The notes beneath the pieces were generated by a model. That model ran no database searches. It had not been told where the DNA came from and saw only the letters and a list, made by a program, of their open reading frames with translations. The translations under genes and the position numbers were made by a program. From positions 2,338,395 to 2,402,394 of the forward strand of contig CP070702.1 in NCBI GenBank assembly GCA_020349905.1: a DNA stretch of 64,000 bases. Direction: 5' to 3'. Of the stretch, positions 4,368 through 28,521 are shown piece by piece. Positions within the stretch are counted from its first letter, which is position 1; each line of letters opens with the position of its first letter. This stretch comes from Candidatus Eiseniibacteriota bacterium. Its GTDB lineage: Bacteria > Eisenbacteria > RBG-16-71-46 > JAFGJU01.

Positions 4368-5114
4368 ATGAGAGCGCTTGTCCTGATACTGGGGACGCTG
4401 CTTGTGTGCGCGTCTTCGGCCAGTGCGGATGTCTGCTTGAAGCACCACATCCATACTGACGGCTATTATTTCGGGGGTGAGACGAGCCCGCCGGAGGACT
4501 CGGACTACGAGGTTTGGCTTGCCGGCAGCAAGATGTCCGTGGTGCTCGAAACCAGAACCGTTGTGTTTGACCTGGATGCGAATCTGCTCACCTTCATAAA
4601 CCACGACGACTCTACTTACGCAGAGACCACTCTGCCGCTGGATTGGCGGAATCTCCTTTCTGAAGCCGATGCCGCGAGAGTACTCATGTTCCAGACCGAG
4701 GGCACGGTCAAGGATCCCGGCGAGGCCAGAGAGACGCGGAAGGTCGGAGAACGGGAATGCGTCGGACAGGAGATGACCACCTGGATTCCCTACGAGGGAA
4801 CCAGGTACAACGAGACCGACACGAGAATGTGGCTATCGACTGACATACCCTTTGACCTGGAGACATACGAAGCACTGAAGACGCACAACCTGAGGCTGGT
4901 CAACTTGAAGGAGGGATTGCTGGAGGAGCTCAAGGAAGCCAGGGGCTACCCGATGGCCGAGGAGAGCGATAGATACATAAAGGGCTTCAGCATCAGGTCC
5001 ACGGACGAGGTTGTGGAGATTTCCGAAGAGGAACCGGCCTACGACGTGTATTCTGCGCCAGAAGGGTTCAGCAAGAAGGACAAGCTCTCCTTGCAGGACC
5101 TAAGGGGGAGGTAA
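4368..5114 (+). CDS. secreted hypothetical protein, DUF4412-like
   Basis: 248 residues. ATG 4368 follows a strong ribosome site (GAGAGGAGG) and begins a clean signal peptide (MRALVLILGTLLVCASSASA), so the export start is well supported. The mature part is a beta-rich protein with strand-like segments such as YEVWLAGSKMSVV and TVVFDLDANLLTFIN. This resembles the LolA-like/DUF4412 group of periplasmic proteins that describe a stored metal or lipid state, but I only infer the fold. It ends with a charged helix-like region and lysine-rich tail. No catalytic residues are apparent. Confidence 0.7.
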   Translation: MRALVLILGTLLVCASSASADVCLKHHIHTDGYYFGGETSPPEDSDYEVWLAGSKMSVVLETRTVVFDLDANLLTFINHDDSTYAETTLPLDWRNLLSEADAARVLMFQTEGTVKDPGEARETRKVGERECVGQEMTTWIPYEGTRYNETDTRMWLSTDIPFDLETYEALKTHNLRLVNLKEGLLEELKEARGYPMAEESDRYIKGFSIRSTDEVVEISEEEPAYDVYSAPEGFSKKDKLSLQDLRGR

Positions 5115-5180
5115 TCTTTTTCGCTCCCAGGGCTTGAACGGCGCGACCCGGATAATCAGCCCGAAAACTTGGAGGAGAAG

Positions 5181-6428
5181 ATGAGGAAGAAGTCGACGGA
5201 AGGTAGAAGAAGTTTCTTGAAGAAGGGAGCGTTCGGCCTGGCGGGCCTGGCGGTTCTTCCCTCCGTGCTTACAAGGGACTCCCGTGCTCAAACCGGCGAG
5301 GCGTCAGCAGTCACGGATACCACCAGGGTCGCCAAGAAGCACGCCCTGATGACGCGAACCCTCGGCAGGACCGGGCTTACCCTTCCCATTCTCAGCATAG
5401 GGGCCATGACGACAGACAATCCAGAGGTGCTGAAAGCCGCTCTGGAGGCAGGTATCGTGCACATCGACACGGCGCACGCCTACCAGAGAGGACGGAACGA
5501 AGAGATGATCGGTGAGATCGTCAAGGGTCGGCCGCGGGATTCGTTCGTGATTGCTACGAAGGTCAGTGGACCTGGGGACAGTAGGACGGGCATGTTCACG
5601 AAGGACGCCACCTCGGAGATGTTCGCAGAGAGGTTCGAGACCAGCCTCAAGCGGCTGGGGCTGGACTACGTGGATATTCTCTACATACACGACGTCGTCC
5701 GCAAAGAAGCAGTGACATACGAGCCGTTTCTTTCTGTATTGGAGAAGCTCAAGAAGGAGGGGAAGACCCGCTTCATAGGTGTCACGACTCACGGCAACGA
5801 GCCCGAGGTAATCAGGGCGGCGGTGGAGAGCAAGGTTCACGACGTTGTCCTGACTGCCTACAATTTCCGGCAGCCTCACATCAAGGAGATGGATGAGGCA
5901 ATGGCGGCCGCCGCAAAGGCGGGCGTAGGGATCGTCGCCATGAAGACCCAGGCTGGGATTTATTGGGACAGGGAGAGGAAGAATCCAATCAACATGAAGG
6001 CCGCCCTGAAGTGGGTTCTCCGGAACGAGAACGTTCATACCGCGATCCCAGGCATGACCACGTTCGACCAGCTGGAGACGAACCTATCCGCAGTGGAGGA
6101 ATTCTCCCTGACGCCCGAAGAGAAGGAGGACCTCAAGCTGGGTCAGAGGATGGGTATGCTGGGCCTGTACTGCCGGCAGTGCGGGACGTGCGTGTCTCAG
6201 TGCGGCAGGAATCTTGAGATTCCGACCCTTATGCGAAGTTACATGTACGTGTACGGCTATAGGAATCTGGCCGCCGCGAAGGACGCGATGGAGACCGTTG
6301 CCCTGTCCAGGGTGCCTTGCGACAGCTGCAGTACGTGCAGCGTCAACTGCCCGATGGGGTTTGACGTAAAGGGCAGAATACAGGACGTGGCACGAATCCA
6401 GAACATCCCATACGATTTCGTCGCCTGA
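5181..6428 (+). CDS. Tat-exported aldo/keto reductase with C-terminal double 4Fe-4S motif
   Basis: 415 residues, start ATG 5181 behind GGAGGAG at 5171. The N terminus is a twin-arginine signal (GRRSFLKK at residues 8-15 plus a hydrophobic stretch). The aldo/keto reductase barrel has its tetrad Asp96, Tyr101, Lys127 and His170. The C-terminal part has two CxxCxxCxxxC motifs (Cys331/334/337/341 and Cys380/383/386/390), typical of two 4Fe-4S clusters. It therefore probably couples NAD(P)H or substrate oxidation to electron transfer outside the cytoplasm, or is folded with cofactors before Tat export. The physiological substrate is unknown. The next gene, glnS, starts 53 bases later. Confidence 0.88.
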   Translation: MRKKSTEGRRSFLKKGAFGLAGLAVLPSVLTRDSRAQTGEASAVTDTTRVAKKHALMTRTLGRTGLTLPILSIGAMTTDNPEVLKAALEAGIVHIDTAHAYQRGRNEEMIGEIVKGRPRDSFVIATKVSGPGDSRTGMFTKDATSEMFAERFETSLKRLGLDYVDILYIHDVVRKEAVTYEPFLSVLEKLKKEGKTRFIGVTTHGNEPEVIRAAVESKVHDVVLTAYNFRQPHIKEMDEAMAAAAKAGVGIVAMKTQAGIYWDRERKNPINMKAALKWVLRNENVHTAIPGMTTFDQLETNLSAVEEFSLTPEEKEDLKLGQRMGMLGLYCRQCGTCVSQCGRNLEIPTLMRSYMYVYGYRNLAAAKDAMETVALSRVPCDSCSTCSVNCPMGFDVKGRIQDVARIQNIPYDFVA

Positions 6429-6481: not shown

Positions 6482-8176
6482 ATGGCTGACGTCGGCGCCA
6501 AGTCATCGACCAACTTCATAAAGGAGATCATTGACGCGGACCTGAAGGTGGGGAAGAACGAGGGCCGGGTGCACACAAGGTTTCCTCCCGAGCCGAACGG
6601 CTATCTCCATCTCGGTCACGCCAAGTCTATCTGCCTCAATTTCGGTCTGGCCATCGAATACGGAGGGCTCTGCAATCTGCGGTTTGATGACACGAACCCC
6701 ACCAAGGAGGAGCCCGAATATGTCGAATCCATCATCGGGGATATCAAATGGCTGGGGTTCGATTGGGGTGACCGGCTGTTCTACGCATCCAGCTACTTCG
6801 ACCAGCTCTACGAGTTCGCGGTGAAATTGATTAAGCACGGGAAGGCGTACGTTTGCGACCTTAGCGCGGAGGAGATACGCAAGACAAGGGGCACGTTGAC
6901 GGCGCCGGGCACGAACAGCCCCTTTCGGGACCGTACCCCGGAGGAGAACCTCGACCTGTTCGAGCGCATGAGAGCCGGGGAGTTCCCGGACGGCTCTCGG
7001 GTCCTTCGCGCCAAGATCGACATGGCATCCGGTAACCTGAACATGCGGGACCCGGTCATGTATAGAATCCTCAGGGCCTCGCATCACCGGACCGGGGACA
7101 AGTGGTGCATCTATCCAACCTACGACTTCACCCACGGGCAATCTGACTCCATCGAGGGCATAACTCACTCCATCTGCACGCTCGAGTTCGAGGCCCACAG
7201 GCCGTTGTACGATTGGTACGTGGAGGCGCTCGGGATACACCATCCGCAGCAGATCGAATTTGCCCCCCTGAATCTCAGCCACACGGTTCTCAGCAAGCGG
7301 AAGCTGCTGCGGCTGGTGGCAGAGGGATGCGTTGGTGGATGGGACGACCCACGAATGCCCACGATATCCGGAATGCGTAGACGAGGCTACACGCCGGAGG
7401 CAGTTCGCGCGTTCTGTGAACGCATCGGGGTGGCGAAGAGGGAAAGCCTGGTGGACACGGCGCTGCTCGAGCACTGCGTTCGAGAGGACCTGAACAGGCG
7501 GGCTCCGCGTGTCATGGCTGTCATCCGCCCACTTCGGGTGGTTATCGACAACTACCCGGAGGGCCAGGTGGAAGAGCTGGAGGCCATCAACAATCCGGAG
7601 GACCCGGCGCAGGGCACACGGGAGGTCCCTTTCTCCCGAGTGCTGTACGTCGAACAGGATGACTTTCGCGAGGATCCTCCGGGAAAGTTCTTCCGGTTGT
7701 CACCGGGGCGAGAGGTACGTTTGCGGTATGCCTACTACATCACCTGCGTGGATGTTGTTAAGGATGCTGCGACCGGGGACGTGATAGAGCTGCACTGTAC
7801 GTATGACCCTGAGACGCGGGGAGGTTGGGCCCCCGATGGACGGAAGGTGAAAGGGACGCTTCACTGGGTGTCGGCCGAACACGCCCTGGACGGCGAAGTG
7901 AGACTCTACGACCACCTGTTTACGAAGCCTGATCCCGTTGACGTTGAAGGCGCGGACTGGCTTTCCAATCTGAATCCCCGCTCTCTGGAGGTCCTGACTG
8001 GCTGCAAGTTTGAACCCAGCCTCGCCGGAGCGAAACCGGGCTATCGGTGTCAGTTTGAAAGACAGGGCTACTTCTGCGCAGACAAAGACTCTTCCGGGAA
8101 GAGCCTCGTTTTCAATCGTACCGTGTCACTGCGCGACACGTGGGCAAAGATCGAGAAGACCCAAGCAGGACGTTGA
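6482..8176 (+). CDS. glnS: glutaminyl-tRNA synthetase
   Basis: Full-length class I GlnRS, 564 residues (E. coli enzyme about 554). The HIGH-type motif is HLGH at residues 43-46 within [13 protein letters not shown], and the KMSKS-type motif is VLSKRKL. The catalytic domain also contains the RFDDTNP segment, and the C-terminal beta-barrel anticodon-binding domains follow. It charges tRNA-Gln directly with glutamine in the cytoplasm. Its presence suggests the organism need not rely on transamidation for Gln-tRNA. The start ATG 6482 is 53 bases after the reductase. The dehydratase follows within 35 bases, so they may be co-transcribed. Confidence 0.97.
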
Positions 8177-9220: not shown

Positions 9221-11359
9221 ATGTTCAGAGAAACCGCATCGTTCTCGAGGCGTGCCACGTTCTTTCAAGCCTCGCTGTCACTCGCTGCGGCGTTCGTCTT
9301 TCTGCTCTCTGTCATTCCTGCACAGGCTGGGTCTCATTCGGCGCCGGTTACGCGCCAGGACAACGTGGCGGACATTCTACACGACGTCGAAATCGTGGAC
9401 CCGTATCGCTGGCTGGAAGACCAGGAGAGTCCAGAGACCCGCGCGTGGATCGAGACGCAGAACGCCTACACCCAGTCGTTCATGGAGAACATCCCGGTGC
9501 GGGAGGAGCTGAGGGAGCGCTACACCGAGCTACTCAGAACGGAGCGCATCGGCATGCCCATAGAGCGCAACGGGCGCTACTTCTTTGCGAAGAGGGCGGC
9601 GGACCAGGATCTGTACCTCATCTACCTGCGTGAGGGGCTCGATGGTGAAGACCAGGTTCTCGTGGATCCCCATCCGATGAGCGACGACGGAACGACAAGC
9701 GTTGGCCTTCTGGACGTCTCGCAGGACGGGAAGCTGATGCTGTATCAGGTTCGCGAGGGAGGCGAGGACGAAGTAGTCGTGAAGATGTACGACGTCGACG
9801 GCCGAACGCACTTGAAGGACGAGATGCCGAAAGCGCTCTACTTCGGGCTGTCTCTCCTCCCAGACAAGAGCGGCTTCTACTACTCTCGCCACGATACCTC
9901 TGGCTCGCGCGTCTACTTCCATACCATCGGGACGGCCATCTCGGAAGACGGATACGTTTTCGGTGAGGGCTACGGACCCGAGATGGGAATCGGCTCCGAC
10001 GTCTCAGAAGACGGAAAGCACCTCGTCATCACTGTCTTCCACGGATCGGCTGCACTGAAGACGGAGGTCTATTACAAGAATCTGGCCGAGGGGGGCCCCG
10101 TCACGACCATCGTGAACGACGTCGACGCAAGGTTTATTCCCCAGGTGGGGGGGGATTGCATCTTTGTTCAGACCTATTGGAACGCTCCCAACGGCCGCAT
10201 ACTGGCAATAGACCTGAATAACCCGTCGCGCGAGAACTGGCGGGAGTTGATTCCGGAAACGAAGGCCGTGATGGAGGAGTTCACCCTCGCCGGCGGGAAG
10301 ATATTCGTCAACTACCTGGAAAACGTGGCTTCTAAGGTCAAGGTATTCGAGTCTGACGGGAAGTACGTTCGCGACATCGCCTTCCCCACGATTGGCTCCG
10401 TGGGGAGCGTCAAGGGAAGGTGGGGGCATGACGAGACCTTCTTCATGTTCTCGTCGTTTCACGTTCCGACTACCATCTTCCGGTACGCCACCAGCACGGG
10501 CACGCAGGAAGTCTGGGCACGGTTGGACGTGCGGGTCGATACGGAAAGAGTGAGGGTCGAGCAGGTTTGGTACGAGTCCAATGACGGCACCAAGGTGCCG
10601 ATGTTTATTGTGCACCGTGATGACCTGAAACTCGACGGAGACAACCCCACCGTGCTTGTGGGATACGGCGGCTTCAATGTCAGTTTCACACCTTTCTTTT
10701 CCGCTACGGCGGTGAACTGGGTGGAGCACGGAGGTATATTCGCCCTTGCCAACCTTAGGGGCGGAGGGGAATTCGGTGAAGAGTGGCACCGGGCCGGGAT
10801 GCTGGAAAAGAAGCAGAACGTTTTCGATGACTTCATCGCGGCCGCCGAGTGGCTGATAGAAAGCAAATACACCAACCCGTCCAGGCTGGCGATACTCGGG
10901 GGGAGTAACGGAGGTCTGCTCGTGGGTGCGGCTCTTGTTCAGCGCCCGGAGCTTTTCAAAGCCGTGGTCTGTACGTACCCCTTGTTGGACATGCTCAGGT
11001 TCCAGAGGTTTCTACTGGCAAAGCTGTGGGTTTCCGAGTACGGCTCACCCGAAGACCCGGAGCATTTCAAGTTCATCCGCGCGTACTCTCCTTACCACAA
11101 CGTGAAGAAGGGTACGAAATACCCTGCCACGCTCTTCGTCACTGGCGATTCCGACACGCGCGTGGCCCCTCTCCACGCTCGCAAGATGACCGCGCTGCTT
11201 CAGGCATCGACCGGCTCTGACGCTCCGGTGCTCTTGCGATACGAGAGCACTGCTGGCCACTCGGGTGGGGGTTCGGTGACGAGGGACATCGAAGAGGCCA
11301 CTGACGAAACGACGTTTCTCTGCTGGCAGCTTGGAGTGCAAGAGATTGGTGAGGACTAG
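9221..11359 (+). CDS. secreted prolyl oligopeptidase, family S9A
   Basis: 712 residues. ATG 9221 follows a near-perfect ribosome site (AAAGGAGGT). An N-terminal hydrophobic signal (residues about 12-37, ending in AQA) implies export. The prolyl-oligopeptidase N-terminal segment (VDPYRWLED) and a seven-bladed propeller precede the alpha/beta hydrolase domain. Ser562 lies in GGSNGGL, the catalytic Asp in GDSDTRV, and the His in STAGHSGG. It cleaves short peptides after proline. Typical cytosolic POPs lack a signal peptide, so this is a periplasmic version consistent with the other exported peptidases in the window. Confidence 0.93.
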   Translation: MFRETASFSRRATFFQASLSLAAAFVFLLSVIPAQAGSHSAPVTRQDNVADILHDVEIVDPYRWLEDQESPETRAWIETQNAYTQSFMENIPVREELRERYTELLRTERIGMPIERNGRYFFAKRAADQDLYLIYLREGLDGEDQVLVDPHPMSDDGTTSVGLLDVSQDGKLMLYQVREGGEDEVVVKMYDVDGRTHLKDEMPKALYFGLSLLPDKSGFYYSRHDTSGSRVYFHTIGTAISEDGYVFGEGYGPEMGIGSDVSEDGKHLVITVFHGSAALKTEVYYKNLAEGGPVTTIVNDVDARFIPQVGGDCIFVQTYWNAPNGRILAIDLNNPSRENWRELIPETKAVMEEFTLAGGKIFVNYLENVASKVKVFESDGKYVRDIAFPTIGSVGSVKGRWGHDETFFMFSSFHVPTTIFRYATSTGTQEVWARLDVRVDTERVRVEQVWYESNDGTKVPMFIVHRDDLKLDGDNPTVLVGYGGFNVSFTPFFSATAVNWVEHGGIFALANLRGGGEFGEEWHRAGMLEKKQNVFDDFIAAAEWLIESKYTNPSRLAILGGSNGGLLVGAALVQRPELFKAVVCTYPLLDMLRFQRFLLAKLWVSEYGSPEDPEHFKFIRAYSPYHNVKKGTKYPATLFVTGDSDTRVAPLHARKMTALLQASTGSDAPVLLRYESTAGHSGGGSVTRDIEEATDETTFLCWQLGVQEIGED

Positions 11360-11388
11360 TCGTGGACGTGGCGCGCATGGATTGCTTT

Positions 11389-11418
11389 TTGACAGGTTAG
11401 CGCGAGGGAGTGTATGTT
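11389..11418 (+). promoter_or_regulatory. putative sigma70 promoter just upstream of the GIY-YIG-like gene
   Basis: TTGACA at 11389-11394 (perfect -35), an 18-base spacer, and TATGTT at 11413-11418. The expected transcription start (about 11425) lies only a few bases before GTG 11429. The transcript would be almost leaderless. Confidence 0.45.
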
Positions 11419-11428
11419 GTGAGGCATC

Positions 11429-11755
11429 GTGGAAAAGGCGAGGGTCCATAACGTCTACGTGGTCGAGCTGGACAAGGATGTGCTGAAGGAGCGGAAGTTC
11501 CTGGAGGCGAATTCGGGCCACGACCCGGAGAAAGCATGCCTGTACGTGGGCATGACAGGGTTGAGCCCTGACGAGCGGTTCAAGAATCACAAGGAAGGCC
11601 GCAAGGCCAACAAGTATGTCAAAAAGTACGGCCTCTGGCTGAGACGTCGAATCTACACGAAATACAACCCCATGACGTACGAGGAGGCCCAACGGATGGA
11701 AGCCTGGCTGGCCCGGCGGCTGCGCGCGAAGGGCCACGCTGTCTGGCAGAATTAG
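11429..11755 (+). CDS. GIY-YIG-like nuclease-fold protein
   Basis: 108 residues, GTG start. The segment VYVVEL followed by CLYVGMTGLSPDERFKNH resembles the two-strand GIY-YIG core (first strand VYVVEL; second strand LYVGMT, then an Arg/His-bearing helix). A conserved-looking basic block (KANKYVKKYGLWLRRR) follows. Stand-alone GIY-YIG proteins of this size occur widely and their biological role is mostly unknown. The core Tyr in the first strand is present, but I cannot confirm every catalytic position. It sits alone between two peptidase genes and probably has its own promoter. Confidence 0.6.
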   Translation: MEKARVHNVYVVELDKDVLKERKFLEANSGHDPEKACLYVGMTGLSPDERFKNHKEGRKANKYVKKYGLWLRRRIYTKYNPMTYEEAQRMEAWLARRLRAKGHAVWQN

Positions 11756-11833
11756 CGGATCTGACTTCTGGTCACGGCGTTTCGCTGCGTCCACTTGCGG
11801 CCGCATCGGTTCATTCGCGCGGAGGCAGAGAAA

Positions 11834-13948
11834 ATGAAGATGATCTGGCTGCTCACAAGCTCTTCTTTGCTGACCCTCACCTTCAGCCTCCTACTTTGTT
11901 CCTGTATGTCTCAAGAGTCAAATCCCTTCTTCAGCGAGTCTGAGACGCCCTTTGGCGTTCCCCCGTTCGACGTCATCAAGGAACGGCACTATCTGCCGGC
12001 GTTCAAAGAAGGGATGGCACAGCAGCAGAGAGAGATTGAAGTCATCGTGAAGAACACTGGGGCTCCCACATTTGAAAACATTGTCGAAGCGCTTGCAGCA
12101 AGTGGAGCGCTCCTGACAAAGGTGCGGAGCGTCTTCTACCATATGAATTCCGCCCACACGAATGAACAGATGCAGAAGATCGCCGAGCAGGTGGCGCCGC
12201 TGCTTTCCAGGCACGAAGACGACATCCGGCTGAACGTGGAGCTCTTCCGGAGAATAGAAGCCATACACGCTCGAAGGGACTCTCTCGGCCTCACTCCCGA
12301 ACAGGGGATGCTTCTGGAAAAATACTACAAGGACTTCGTGAGGGGCGGAGTCCAGCTGGATGAGGATAAGAAGGCCCGACTGAGAGAGATAAACAAGGAG
12401 CTGTCTCTTCTGACTCTCAAATTCGGCAAGAACATTCTCAAGGAGGACAATGCGTTCGAGCTGGTCATCCAGAACGAGGAGGACCTTACCGGGCTGCCAG
12501 AGGCGGTGGTCGAAGCTGCTGCTGAGGCGGCGGCGGAGCGAGGAAAGAAGGGAAAGTGGGTATTCACGCTGCACTACCCAAGCATGACGCCGTTTCTGCG
12601 GTACGCAGAGAACAGGGAACTTCGAGAGAAGCTCTTCAGGGCCTACGTGAGTCGGGGCAGCAACCCGAACAAGTTGAATACGAAGGGGCTCGTGGCCGAG
12701 ATTGCCGCTCTTCGCCTCGAGAAGGCGAATCTGCTGGGCTACAAGACCTACGCCGAGTTTGCCCTGGAAGAGAACATGGCGAAGGATGCCGCCGGCGTCT
12801 ATAAATTGCTGGACGAGATATGGGAACCGGCCCTCAGGACGGCCCGAAGAGAGGCGGCGGAGCTGCAGGCGCTGATCCAAGAGGAAGGACAGGACTTCGA
12901 GCTGCAACCGTGGGATTGGCCGTTCTATGCCGAGAAGCTGCGGAAGGCAAGGTACGATCTGGACGACAGGATGCTGAGGCCGTACTTCGCCCTGGAAAGT
13001 GTGCGAGACGGTGCGTTCGCGGTTGCAAACAAGCTGTACGGAATCACGTTCGAAGAACGGACGGACGTTCCAGTATATCAGGAAGACGTGAGGGTGTTCG
13101 AAGTAAAGGAAGCAGACGGAACGCATATCGGCATTTTCTACACAGACTATTTCCCGAGGGCCAGTAAGAGGGGTGGAGCCTGGATGGGTTCCTGCAGGAA
13201 GCAATCCCGGCAGGGAGGTGTGGAAGTCACTCCCGTCGTTCACAACGTCTGTAACTTCTCCATGCCGACTGCTGACAGCCCTGCGTTGCTGAGTCTCGAG
13301 GAAGTCCGCACACTCTTCCACGAATTCGGCCACGCCCTGCACGGGCTACTCTCCAACACCACGTATCGCCGCCTCTCTGGCTCGGAAGTGGCCACGGATT
13401 TCGTGGAGCTGCCGTCTCAGATCATGGAGAACTGGGCAGTGGAACCCGAAGTACTCAGGGCGTACGCAAAGCACTACGAGACGGGCGAGGTCATCCCCCA
13501 GGAGCTGATAGACAGCATCCACAACGCCCGCTACTTCAACCAGGGTTTTGCCTCGGTCGAGTATCTGGCCGCCTGCTATCTTGACATGGACTGGCACACC
13601 ATAACGGCGGCCGAGAAGCTGGCGGTCGACGAGTTCGAGGAAAGCTGTATGAGGCGTATCGGCCTCATCCCGCAGATCGTGGTGAGATATCGAAGCCCCT
13701 ACTTCCGGCACGTCTTCTCCGGTGGCTATTCTGCCGGCTATTACAGCTACGTCTGGGCAGAGGTGCTGGACACGGACGCCTTTCAGGCATTCAAGGAGAC
13801 CAGCCTGTTCGACCAGACCACGGCCCGCTCCTTCAGGGACAACATCCTGTCCACGGGCGGGACGGAAGAACCGATGACGCTTTACAGGCGCTTCAGGGGA
13901 ACGGAGCCCAAGGTGGATGCTCTTCTCAAGGAGAAGGGCTTCGACTGA
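11834..13948 (+). CDS. M3-family metallopeptidase lipoprotein (oligopeptidase A / Dcp type)
   Basis: 704 residues from ATG 11834, behind GGAGG. The N terminus is a lipoprotein signal (LLLCSC lipobox around residue 22), so it is probably anchored in a membrane facing the periplasm. The catalytic zinc motif is HEFGH at residues 496-500, in the family context LFHEFGHALHG. The third ligand Glu is expected in the downstream SQIMENW segment. The length matches peptidyl-dipeptidase Dcp/OpdA. Known family members are usually cytoplasmic, and exported Dcp-type enzymes occur in several Gram-negative groups. It would degrade oligopeptides made by other exported peptidases. Confidence 0.92.
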   Translation: MKMIWLLTSSSLLTLTFSLLLCSCMSQESNPFFSESETPFGVPPFDVIKERHYLPAFKEGMAQQQREIEVIVKNTGAPTFENIVEALAASGALLTKVRSVFYHMNSAHTNEQMQKIAEQVAPLLSRHEDDIRLNVELFRRIEAIHARRDSLGLTPEQGMLLEKYYKDFVRGGVQLDEDKKARLREINKELSLLTLKFGKNILKEDNAFELVIQNEEDLTGLPEAVVEAAAEAAAERGKKGKWVFTLHYPSMTPFLRYAENRELREKLFRAYVSRGSNPNKLNTKGLVAEIAALRLEKANLLGYKTYAEFALEENMAKDAAGVYKLLDEIWEPALRTARREAAELQALIQEEGQDFELQPWDWPFYAEKLRKARYDLDDRMLRPYFALESVRDGAFAVANKLYGITFEERTDVPVYQEDVRVFEVKEADGTHIGIFYTDYFPRASKRGGAWMGSCRKQSRQGGVEVTPVVHNVCNFSMPTADSPALLSLEEVRTLFHEFGHALHGLLSNTTYRRLSGSEVATDFVELPSQIMENWAVEPEVLRAYAKHYETGEVIPQELIDSIHNARYFNQGFASVEYLAACYLDMDWHTITAAEKLAVDEFEESCMRRIGLIPQIVVRYRSPYFRHVFSGGYSAGYYSYVWAEVLDTDAFQAFKETSLFDQTTARSFRDNILSTGGTEEPMTLYRRFRGTEPKVDALLKEKGFD

Positions 13949-25397: not shown

Positions 25398-25458
25398 ACG
25401 GCCCGCCGCGTCGGGCTTGTGAAAGCGATGTGTCACATCCACTCGAGGGGTGAGCTGA

Positions 25459-28400
25459 TTGAAGATTCGAATACTCTTCTCAGTAGCGCTCGCATTCAGC
25501 TTGGGTGCGAGTTTCTTCTGCGTGAACGGTCGTTGCGCTTACAGTCCCGCAGGGATGGTCGGTGGTTTTCCTCAGGTTTCAGGGATACCCAAAGCAGGGG
25601 GCTACTCGACGTACGAACCCGAGAATCTCTACAAGTATATAAACGGCGCGGCGGACATCTATCTGGGCTACGGCTTCCAGGAGCTGGCCGTACAGATATA
25701 CGAGAACGAGGCAGGCCAGTCCTTGACAATCGAAGTGTACCGTCACGTGGATTCGAGGAACGGCTTCGGCATCTACGCGTCCGAGAGACCGGTAGAAGGT
25801 GATTTTCTCGACATCGGGGTCCAGGGTTACTACGAGGAGGGCATCCTCAATTTCGTCCGGGGAAGCTACTACGTCAAGCTGAACGCGTTCGACCTCGGTG
25901 AAGCGGAAAAGGCGGTGCTGACGGATGTCGCGAACAGCCTGGTGGGGCGGCTGGAGGGGGAACTTCATCTTCCTAGAATCGTGGGCCTCTTTCCTGAGAA
26001 GGGGAGAGTTCCCGATTCCGAACGTTTCATTCCCGGCGACTTTATGGGCTATTCGTTTCTTCAGAATGCCTTCACATGCGACTACGAAGTCTCAGGTGCG
26101 AAGTTCAAACTCTTTGTGATAGAGGAGAGTGATTCGGCCAGGTGTGACGAGGTGCTCAGAAATTACGCAACAGCGGTGAAGAGCCCGCAGACTCGTGTGG
26201 CGCAAGGCCTCCTCACTTTCGAGGATCCTCACCACGGTACGGTGGGTCTTCTCTGGAGAGGCAAGTTCATCTGGGGTGTTCTGGGACTCGATAGGGCCGA
26301 CCTGCGAACCGAATACCTTGATCGAATCAGGGCAGCGAGCGAGCAGAAACTGACCATCGAGCGCCTCCACAGTGATCCCAACCTCAACGGTCCTCGCCTC
26401 CGCGAAGTGAAGTTCTCCCCTGACGGCAGCCGCGTGACGTTTCTCAAGAGCCGACCGGAGGAACAGAAGAGGTACGACCTCTGGGAATACAGCCTGGCGG
26501 ACAGCGCCCTCCGGCTGCTCGTGGATTCCCGTTCTCTTCTGCCGGGGGACGAGAGACTGTCGGACGAGGAGAGGGCGAGACGCGAGCGGAAGCGCCTGTT
26601 CGCGGCCGGCATCGCGGAGTACTCGTGGTCCGATGACGGCCGGATGCTGCTCTTTCCCCTGGGCGGCGAAGTATACACGTATGACCTGAGTTCACCTCCG
26701 GAGCGGGCCACCAAACGTCTGACTTCGACTCCCGAATTCGAAACGGACGCACAGTTTTCTCCGCGGGGACGCTACGTCTCCTTCATACGCGAGCAAGACC
26801 TCTTCGTTATCGACTTGGGAACCGGCAAGGAGAGGCAGCTCACGCTGGACGGGGAGGGGCCGATAAGGAACGGAATGGCCGAATTCATAGCCCAGGAGGA
26901 GATGGGCAGGCACACGGGCTACTGGTGGTCGGAGGACGAAAAGTACGTCGCGTTCACCCGGACTGACGAGACTAAGGTTCAGCTTTCGCGGCGCATGGAG
27001 ATATACGCCGACACCTTCGAGGTCTTCGACCAGCGGTATCCCAGGACCGGCACGCCCAACGTGCTTATCAAGCTGGGCGTGGTGGAGCTTGCGTCGGGAA
27101 AGATACGCTGGATAGGGCTCGGGGAGGAACAGGACATCTACCTTGCCCGGGTGGACTGGCTCCCAGACAACCGCCGCCTTGCAATCCAGCGCCAGTCGCG
27201 GGGCCAGAAGTCCCTGGACCTGCTGTTTGCCGACGCGCTGTCCGGAAAGGCCCGAGTCGTGCTGAGCGAGTCCAGCCAGACTTGGATACACCTCCACGAC
27301 GACCTGAAGTTTCTCAAGACCAGGCCTCAGTTCATCTGGGCCTCGGAACGGGATGGCCACAAGCATCTATATCTCTACGCACTCGACGGAGCACTGCTGC
27401 GTGCTCTGACAGCAGGTAACTGGGACGTCGGGGAGCTGCGCGGCGTGGACGAAGAAGCGGGGCTCATCTATTTCGATGGTTCCCTTACCAGTCCTCTCGA
27501 GAACCACCTCTACATCACATCCATGACGTCGGAACAAGTGACGCCGCCTGAGCGCCTCACGCTGGCCGAAGGCTGGCACACGCCGGACGTGGAAGAGCAC
27601 TGCCGGTTCTTCGTGGACCACTTCTCTTCTCCGGACACGCCTCCCCAGGTAAGCCTTAACCGCATGGACGGTTCGCGCATCGTCTACCTGGAGGAAAACG
27701 CCCTGGATGAGAACCATCCCTACTATCCGTACCTCGCCGACCACCGCCCTGCAGAGTTCGGTAGCATCCGGGCTGGCAACGGTTTAGTTCTCTATTTCCG
27801 GCTCACGAAACCAGCCTCCTTCGACCCGACAAGGAAATATCCGGTGCTCGTTAACGTGTACGGCGGGCCGGGTGGCCAGGTCGTGAGGAAATCCTGGCGC
27901 GGTCAGGGAGACCTCTGGAGCCAGTACATGGTTCAGCAGGGATACGTCGTCTTTGCCCTGGACGGGCGGGGGTCTGCCAATCGGGGGAGAGCGTTCGGGG
28001 ACGTTCTCTACCGTTCCTTCGGCAGCGTGGAAGTGGAAGACCAGGTCAGGGGTGTGGAGTTCCTGAAGAGCTTGCCCTACGTTGACGGCGAGCGGATAGG
28101 AATCTACGGTCACAGCTACGGGGGTTACGTTGTGCTGATGGCCATGATGAAGGCTCCGGGCGTCTTTGCTGCAGGAGTCTCTTCCGCCCCTGTCACGGAC
28201 TGGCTTCTCTATGACACTCACTACACGGAGCGCTACCTCGGCCACCCGGAACACGACCCCGAGGCCTACCGGAAGAGCAGCGTGTTTTCTCACCTGGATG
28301 GTCTCGAGGGGGAGCTGCTCGTGATTCATGGCATGGCAGACGACAACGTTCTCTTCACGAACAGCTGCAAGCTGTACAAAGCACTCCAGGACAGGGGAGT

Positions 28401-28521
28401 CGCCTTCGGGATGATGAACTATCCCGGCAGCAAGCACAGCCTCTGGGGGAAGGAAGTCGCCACGCACGTGGGGAAGACCAAGGCTCGCTTCTTCGACGAG
28501 AACCTGCGTGCCGATCGGTGA
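25459..28521 (+). CDS. secreted fusion: DUF6599-like domain plus dipeptidyl peptidase IV (S9B)
   Basis: 1020 residues, TTG start behind GAGGGG. A signal peptide is followed by a DUF6599-like domain at about residues 45-290 (KYINGAADIYLGYGFQELAV and the EVYRHVDSRNGFGIYASER region). The DPP-IV propeller begins at about residue 298 (LTIERLHSDP). It contains the double-Glu segment AQEEMGRHTGYWW that anchors the substrate amino terminus. The alpha/beta domain has Ser886 in GHSYGGY, the Asp in MADDNV, and the His in SKHSLWG. DPP-IV enzymes release X-Pro or X-Ala dipeptides from peptide N termini. The N-terminal domain is not part of the known enzyme family. Confidence 0.9.
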   Translation: MKIRILFSVALAFSLGASFFCVNGRCAYSPAGMVGGFPQVSGIPKAGGYSTYEPENLYKYINGAADIYLGYGFQELAVQIYENEAGQSLTIEVYRHVDSRNGFGIYASERPVEGDFLDIGVQGYYEEGILNFVRGSYYVKLNAFDLGEAEKAVLTDVANSLVGRLEGELHLPRIVGLFPEKGRVPDSERFIPGDFMGYSFLQNAFTCDYEVSGAKFKLFVIEESDSARCDEVLRNYATAVKSPQTRVAQGLLTFEDPHHGTVGLLWRGKFIWGVLGLDRADLRTEYLDRIRAASEQKLTIERLHSDPNLNGPRLREVKFSPDGSRVTFLKSRPEEQKRYDLWEYSLADSALRLLVDSRSLLPGDERLSDEERARRERKRLFAAGIAEYSWSDDGRMLLFPLGGEVYTYDLSSPPERATKRLTSTPEFETDAQFSPRGRYVSFIREQDLFVIDLGTGKERQLTLDGEGPIRNGMAEFIAQEEMGRHTGYWWSEDEKYVAFTRTDETKVQLSRRMEIYADTFEVFDQRYPRTGTPNVLIKLGVVELASGKIRWIGLGEEQDIYLARVDWLPDNRRLAIQRQSRGQKSLDLLFADALSGKARVVLSESSQTWIHLHDDLKFLKTRPQFIWASERDGHKHLYLYALDGALLRALTAGNWDVGELRGVDEEAGLIYFDGSLTSPLENHLYITSMTSEQVTPPERLTLAEGWHTPDVEEHCRFFVDHFSSPDTPPQVSLNRMDGSRIVYLEENALDENHPYYPYLADHRPAEFGSIRAGNGLVLYFRLTKPASFDPTRKYPVLVNVYGGPGGQVVRKSWRGQGDLWSQYMVQQGYVVFALDGRGSANRGRAFGDVLYRSFGSVEVEDQVRGVEFLKSLPYVDGERIGIYGHSYGGYVVLMAMMKAPGVFAAGVSSAPVTDWLLYDTHYTERYLGHPEHDPEAYRKSSVFSHLDGLEGELLVIHGMADDNVLFTNSCKLYKALQDRGVAFGMMNYPGSKHSLWGKEVATHVGKTKARFFDENLRADR

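Follow-up and report, generated by a model that had tools for sequence, protein, structure and literature searches.

The closest described relatives of the peptidase reported here are the periplasmic S9B enzymes PmDAP IV and SmDAP IV (PDB 5yp1 and 2ecf), which start right behind the signal peptide. In PmDAP IV, a double-Glu motif fixes the substrate N-terminus, a loop carrying Arg106 marks the SmDAP IV type, and the backbone NH at Asn614 contributes to the oxyanion hole (PMC5807507). The DUF6599 family (PF20244) is uncharacterised, and our literature search found no paper that names it. Here, in a 64,000-nucleotide stretch of a Candidatus Eiseniibacteriota genome (the window; all positions refer to it), we analysed a gene in which a DUF6599 protein is joined to a dipeptidyl peptidase IV (DPP-IV), a rare domain fusion and a variant of a known peptidase. 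The gene cassette from which the added domain appears to stem, with an exported aldo/keto reductase (AKR), is described as a unit newly here.

Anatomy of the fused gene

The fusion gene was a single unbroken frame from a TTG start to a stop, 1020 codons long, with no internal stop and no N, and its product begins with a predicted signal peptide (Table 1). Pfam searches identified DUF6599 at aa 48-222 (E 2.9e-43; 148 bits, curated cut-off 27), the DPPIV_N propeller at aa 400-729 (E 6e-94; 315 bits, cut-off 22) and the Peptidase_S9 hydrolase at aa 822-1017 (E 2.7e-55; 188 bits, cut-off 22.6). The best PDB match was PmDAP IV (5yp1), aligned over aa 293-1003 with E 6e-234 and beginning close to the mature N-terminus of that enzyme. 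A chance or noncoding frame was excluded by the Pfam and PDB matches together with the conserved residues, and an ordinary S9B N-terminus was excluded since 5yp1 aligned only from aa 293. These results agree with the preliminary description, which from the letters alone had proposed one uninterrupted frame with a signal peptide, a DUF6599-type domain and a complete S9B enzyme from about residue 298; the boundary it gave is off by a few residues at most. At about 270 residues, the added part exceeds the span of the Pfam DUF6599 model.

Table 1 Features of the fusion gene and the cassette remnant in the window
Feature	Position	Strand	Basis
Cassette gene 1: secreted protein of ~248 aa, no Pfam family; frame from 4212, probable start 4368	4368..5114	+	Relatives in L058/L059
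Cassette gene 2: AKR, Tat-type RRSFLKK signal, C-terminal 4Fe-4S motifs	5169..6428	+	Pfam Aldo_ket_red, Fer4_17
glnS-like gene in the DUF6599 slot of the cassette	6482..8176	+	Identified by reading the sequence
Putative Shine-Dalgarno-like GAGGGGTGAG ahead of the TTG start	25445..25454	+	Read from sequence
Fusion gene: signal peptide, DUF6599, S9B DPP-IV; 1020 aa	25459..28521	+	Frame, Pfam, PDB match
Predicted signal peptide region, aa 1-26	25459..25536	+	Hydropathy maximum ~aa 5-20
Complete DUF6599 domain, aa 27-291	25537..26331	+	Pfam, end-to-end alignment with stand-alone relatives, AlphaFold2 model
Junction, aa 291-297 (RAASEQK): C-terminal DUF6599 helix meets mature DPP-IV start, no inner signal peptide	26329..26349	+	Comparison with L009, PmDAP IV, C-termini of L056-L059
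S9B DPP-IV, aa 298-1020: propeller, then alpha/beta hydrolase	26350..28518	+	Pfam, PDB match
R379, equivalent to PmDAP IV Arg106; loop marking SmDAP IV type	26593..26595	+	Residue mapping, PMC5807507
E480-E481, double-Glu motif	26896..26901	+	Residue mapping, PMC5807507
S886, catalytic serine (GHSYGG)	28114..28116	+	Residue mapping
D961, catalytic aspartate	28339..28341	+	Residue mapping
H993, catalytic histidine	28435..28437	+	Residue mapping

Residue roles in the DPP-IV half were assigned by mapping the fusion onto PmDAP IV (PMC5807507). Like PmDAP IV and SmDAP IV, the fusion covered the whole length from the mature N-terminus, with propeller and hydrolase above their cut-offs, and possessed the Ser-Asp-His triad, the double-Glu motif, the Arg106-type loop, the Asn691 position and the S1 pocket. 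Y801 corresponds to the oxyanion tyrosine, N963 and most S1 pocket residues were retained, and one pocket residue was changed, the position of Asn614 being Tyr in the fusion. Because the catalytic and binding residues are conserved, the DPP-IV half should be active as an enzyme. The usual, non-defining S9B trait of a peptidase placed directly behind the signal peptide was lost, with DUF6599 standing in between. That S9B enzymes normally start there, as the preliminary description stated, is true of PmDAP IV and of two unfused DPP-IVs, encoded in genomes of the same family and both equipped with a signal peptide of their own. These were 63% (L009, genome G002) and 58% (L023, genome G001; partial) identical to the DPP-IV half, which, judged by such comparisons, is vertically inherited and native to the lineage. 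Other S9 proteins of the same genome reached ~30% identity in the hydrolase part alone, so that the fusion is the only S9B DPP-IV found in the genome.

The DUF6599 half (aa 27-291) aligned end to end with secreted stand-alone relatives at 43-46% identity; those of 287-321 aa from Bacteroidetes, KSB1 and Gemmatimonadota MAGs and one further bacterium were 44-46% identical over the matched part. The DUF6599 half shared the family core ENLY.YINGAA..YL.YGFQEL and FGIY, and is a full-length chain with a signal peptide, present as a domain and not as a separate gene. An AlphaFold2 model of the domain (pLDDT 92.8, pTM 0.89; 23 sequences) confidently predicts a compact independent unit of two similar halves, each modelled as strand-strand-helix, then strands, then a helix. 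Foldseek returned no significant solved or viral relative of this fold, so no mechanism follows from the structure; faint, non-significant likeness was seen to RseB, TP0453, Dip2269, TplEi and PA3488. The full-length AlphaFold2 model, for which only one DPP-IV relative served as an alignment row, reached pTM 0.47, and its DPP-IV half was too poor for reading how the domains are arranged.

By comparison of the fusion with the unfused DPP-IV of G002 and with PmDAP IV, the join sits at the signal-peptidase site of DPP-IV: where the G002 enzyme has ...SMGHASE-LTLERVCSDPDLNGPRLRE and PmDAP IV has AHAEKLTLE, the sequence of the fusion is ...YLDRIRAASEQKLTIERLHSDPNLNGPRLRE. In stand-alone DUF6599 proteins, a helix closes the chain a few residues beyond the position equivalent to aa 291. 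Both mature chains are thus practically whole, and what is missing is the inner signal peptide and a stop. This anatomy bears on whether two genes were merged by faulty assembly or sequencing, as might be suspected of a single-contig, possibly metagenome-assembled genome of 90.65% estimated completeness. A frameshift would leave intergenic and inner signal-peptide codons, of which none stood at the join; an exact in-frame deletion through error is improbable, and the frame carries neither a stop nor an N. The seamless join, with just the inner signal peptide lost, therefore argues against a frameshift or assembly join, which we rejected as highly improbable; the fusion of DUF6599 with DPP-IV is almost certainly real.

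The company of DUF6599 and the rarity of the fusion

Family mates G001 and G002 carry DPP-IV without DUF6599. Among 47 genomes of the phylum, all of one class, DUF6599 occurred in 11 and its fusion to an S9 peptidase in one. The survey was extended to 291 genomes from the phylum to which G050 belongs, as well as 385 widely drawn genomes, and ~240 DUF6599 matches were listed in all. Most frames were of ~300 aa, and the long ones were inspected; no further peptidase fusion was present among the matches listed. Long candidates (L038-L042, L099-L104, L107, L108) were, as judged by reading and Pfam search, noncoding upstream extensions or long N-termini of the proteins themselves. The expectation in the preliminary description that DUF6599 proteins stand alone held for those seen, except for one other real fusion (L098:2534-4888), in which a polyferredoxin membrane protein with multiple 4Fe-4S domains bears DUF6599 at its C-terminus; this fusion supports a link between the family and redox proteins. 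DUF6599 was absent from the viral contigs searched, and the plasmid records searched gave no match. In a viral-collection contig, a complete DPP-IV gene (L109:338-2566) lay beside phage-like genes; the locus may be host DNA from the edge of a prophage.

Stand-alone DUF6599 genes nearly always had the same kinds of neighbour. An AKR or DUF362 gene, mostly adjoining, lay within ~3 kb in 20/22 named loci and in 17/20 loci of the wide sample (one locus is common to both sets), against a chance expectation of ~3% per locus, given that a genome of this size holds ~ten genes of these kinds. Pfam assigned 18 neighbours equally to Aldo_ket_red (9) and DUF362 (9). Many carried a twin-arginine motif, and the AKRs were often of the Tat type with 4Fe-4S sites. 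The adjacency recurs across many phyla (L056-L077, L110-L129, L044) and points to an exported redox system not described before. The second DUF6599 of the genome (L044:3311-5459; G000:C1 near 1654000) stands directly behind a Tat-signal DUF362 gene, and G002 carries a closely related DUF6599 (L043).

Two loci among the closest relatives of the fused domain, L058 and L059, share one gene order: a secreted protein of ~245 aa without a Pfam family, a Tat-AKR with 4Fe-4S motifs, and DUF6599. The first two of these genes are present in the window. The window AKR was 61% and 59% identical to the AKRs of L058 and L059, respectively, and the protein before it, which had no Pfam match, was 42% identical to the L058 gene upstream of AKR and 33% to its L059 counterpart. 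These small secreted proteins form a family with an HTDxYY motif (window 4368-5114, L058:2345-3073, L059:3858-4592). Unlike in L058 and L059, the third cassette gene is here 19 kb off and forms the N-terminal half of DPP-IV; the fused copy, downstream on the same strand, is the only DUF6599 of the cassette subfamily in the genome. The evidence points to an origin of the domain in the exported AKR cassette, the other two genes of which remain in the window. Two further peptidase genes, for a prolyl oligopeptidase (S9A) and, behind it, an M3 oligopeptidase, lie between cassette and fusion (9221-13948).

The window AKR was found in one of 46 genomes of the class, with none other at E 1e-40, and the cassette was therefore probably acquired by the lineage. 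In trees, this AKR grouped with L058/L059 (100/99) and the DUF6599 of the fusion with L056-L059 (93/91), on a longish branch (0.85). The trees are compatible with an order of events that we infer, in which acquisition was followed by movement of the third gene and its fusion to the native DPP-IV. GC3 was 0.66 in the DUF6599 part against 0.69-0.78 in the window genes compared; the other two cassette genes, at 0.75 and 0.76, are not low, so that composition does not decide the origin.

Readings of the fusion

We consider it about an even chance (probability about 0.5) that DPP-IV captured the third member of the cassette, which would now be a docking or partner domain tying the peptidase to the exported reductase system. 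The sequence itself shows a native S9B gene fused in frame, at its signal-peptidase site, with an entire secreted DUF6599 protein of a type that elsewhere belongs to the AKR cassette. On the docking reading, the N-terminal signal peptide would carry the product into the periplasm; there DPP-IV would cut off Xaa-Pro and Xaa-Ala dipeptides in the usual way, and DUF6599 would still recognise the reductase system. Gating of the substrate tunnel by DUF6599 is not expected. The preliminary interpretation is supported in part, in the identity of the added domain and in the usual separate state of the two proteins; its further suggestion, that the domain may target or regulate the peptidase through a surface partner or peptides, is a conjecture, and the evidence points instead to an origin in the AKR cassette. 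Our explanation as a whole is favoured by the single frame with its three Pfam families, the vertical descent of DPP-IV and its intact residues, the full-length DUF6599 part with its compact modelled domain, the adjacency of DUF6599 to AKR and DUF362 genes, the retained cassette genes, the rarity of this AKR in the class, the trees and the polyferredoxin fusion; the genome has only two AKR genes in total, and the chance of one this near is ~3%. The adjacency itself shows association, not docking. Against docking, the fusion is no longer beside the AKR: no AKR or DUF362 gene lies within ~3 kb of it, and the AKR of the right kind is 19 kb away. The DUF6599 part, given its long branch, may have changed its role.

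It is possible, though we doubt it, that the fusion is real and the DUF6599 half a passive or ligand-binding module, serving stability, peptide or lipid binding, or envelope retention, with no link to AKR. The lack of an adjacent AKR would fit, as would the make-up of the domain, two alpha/beta repeats whose likeness to periplasmic or lipoprotein folds (RseB, TP0453, Dip2269) is weak and non-significant; the strong tie between DUF6599 and AKR or DUF362 genes and the cassette retained in the same window speak against it. A neutral or recent accidental joining, with both halves working as before and no functional meaning in their union, is unlikely. It would take no more than the deletion of a stop and a signal peptide, and one genome only among those sampled has the fusion; because of this single occurrence, selection for the fusion cannot be seen. 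However, both halves are intact and free of decay, and the genome is without a second S9B DPP-IV or a second close DUF6599, from which it follows that the fusion must serve both roles.

The docking reading has a broader form, which we offer tentatively: DUF6599 would be a dedicated extracytoplasmic partner of undescribed Tat-exported AKR/DUF362 redox systems in many phyla, to which the fusion recruits a dipeptidyl peptidase. The fusion itself is an oddity of one lineage. Its main value is a functional lead for DUF6599, which travels with AKRs, often of the Tat type, and with DUF362 proteins in many phyla, and it may reveal which proteins this uncharacterised family works with. It is a natural covalent bait for asking whether a peptidase works with a redox system; if DUF6599 is indeed the partner of such a system, the trimming of peptides and a redox reaction in the periplasm would act in one complex.
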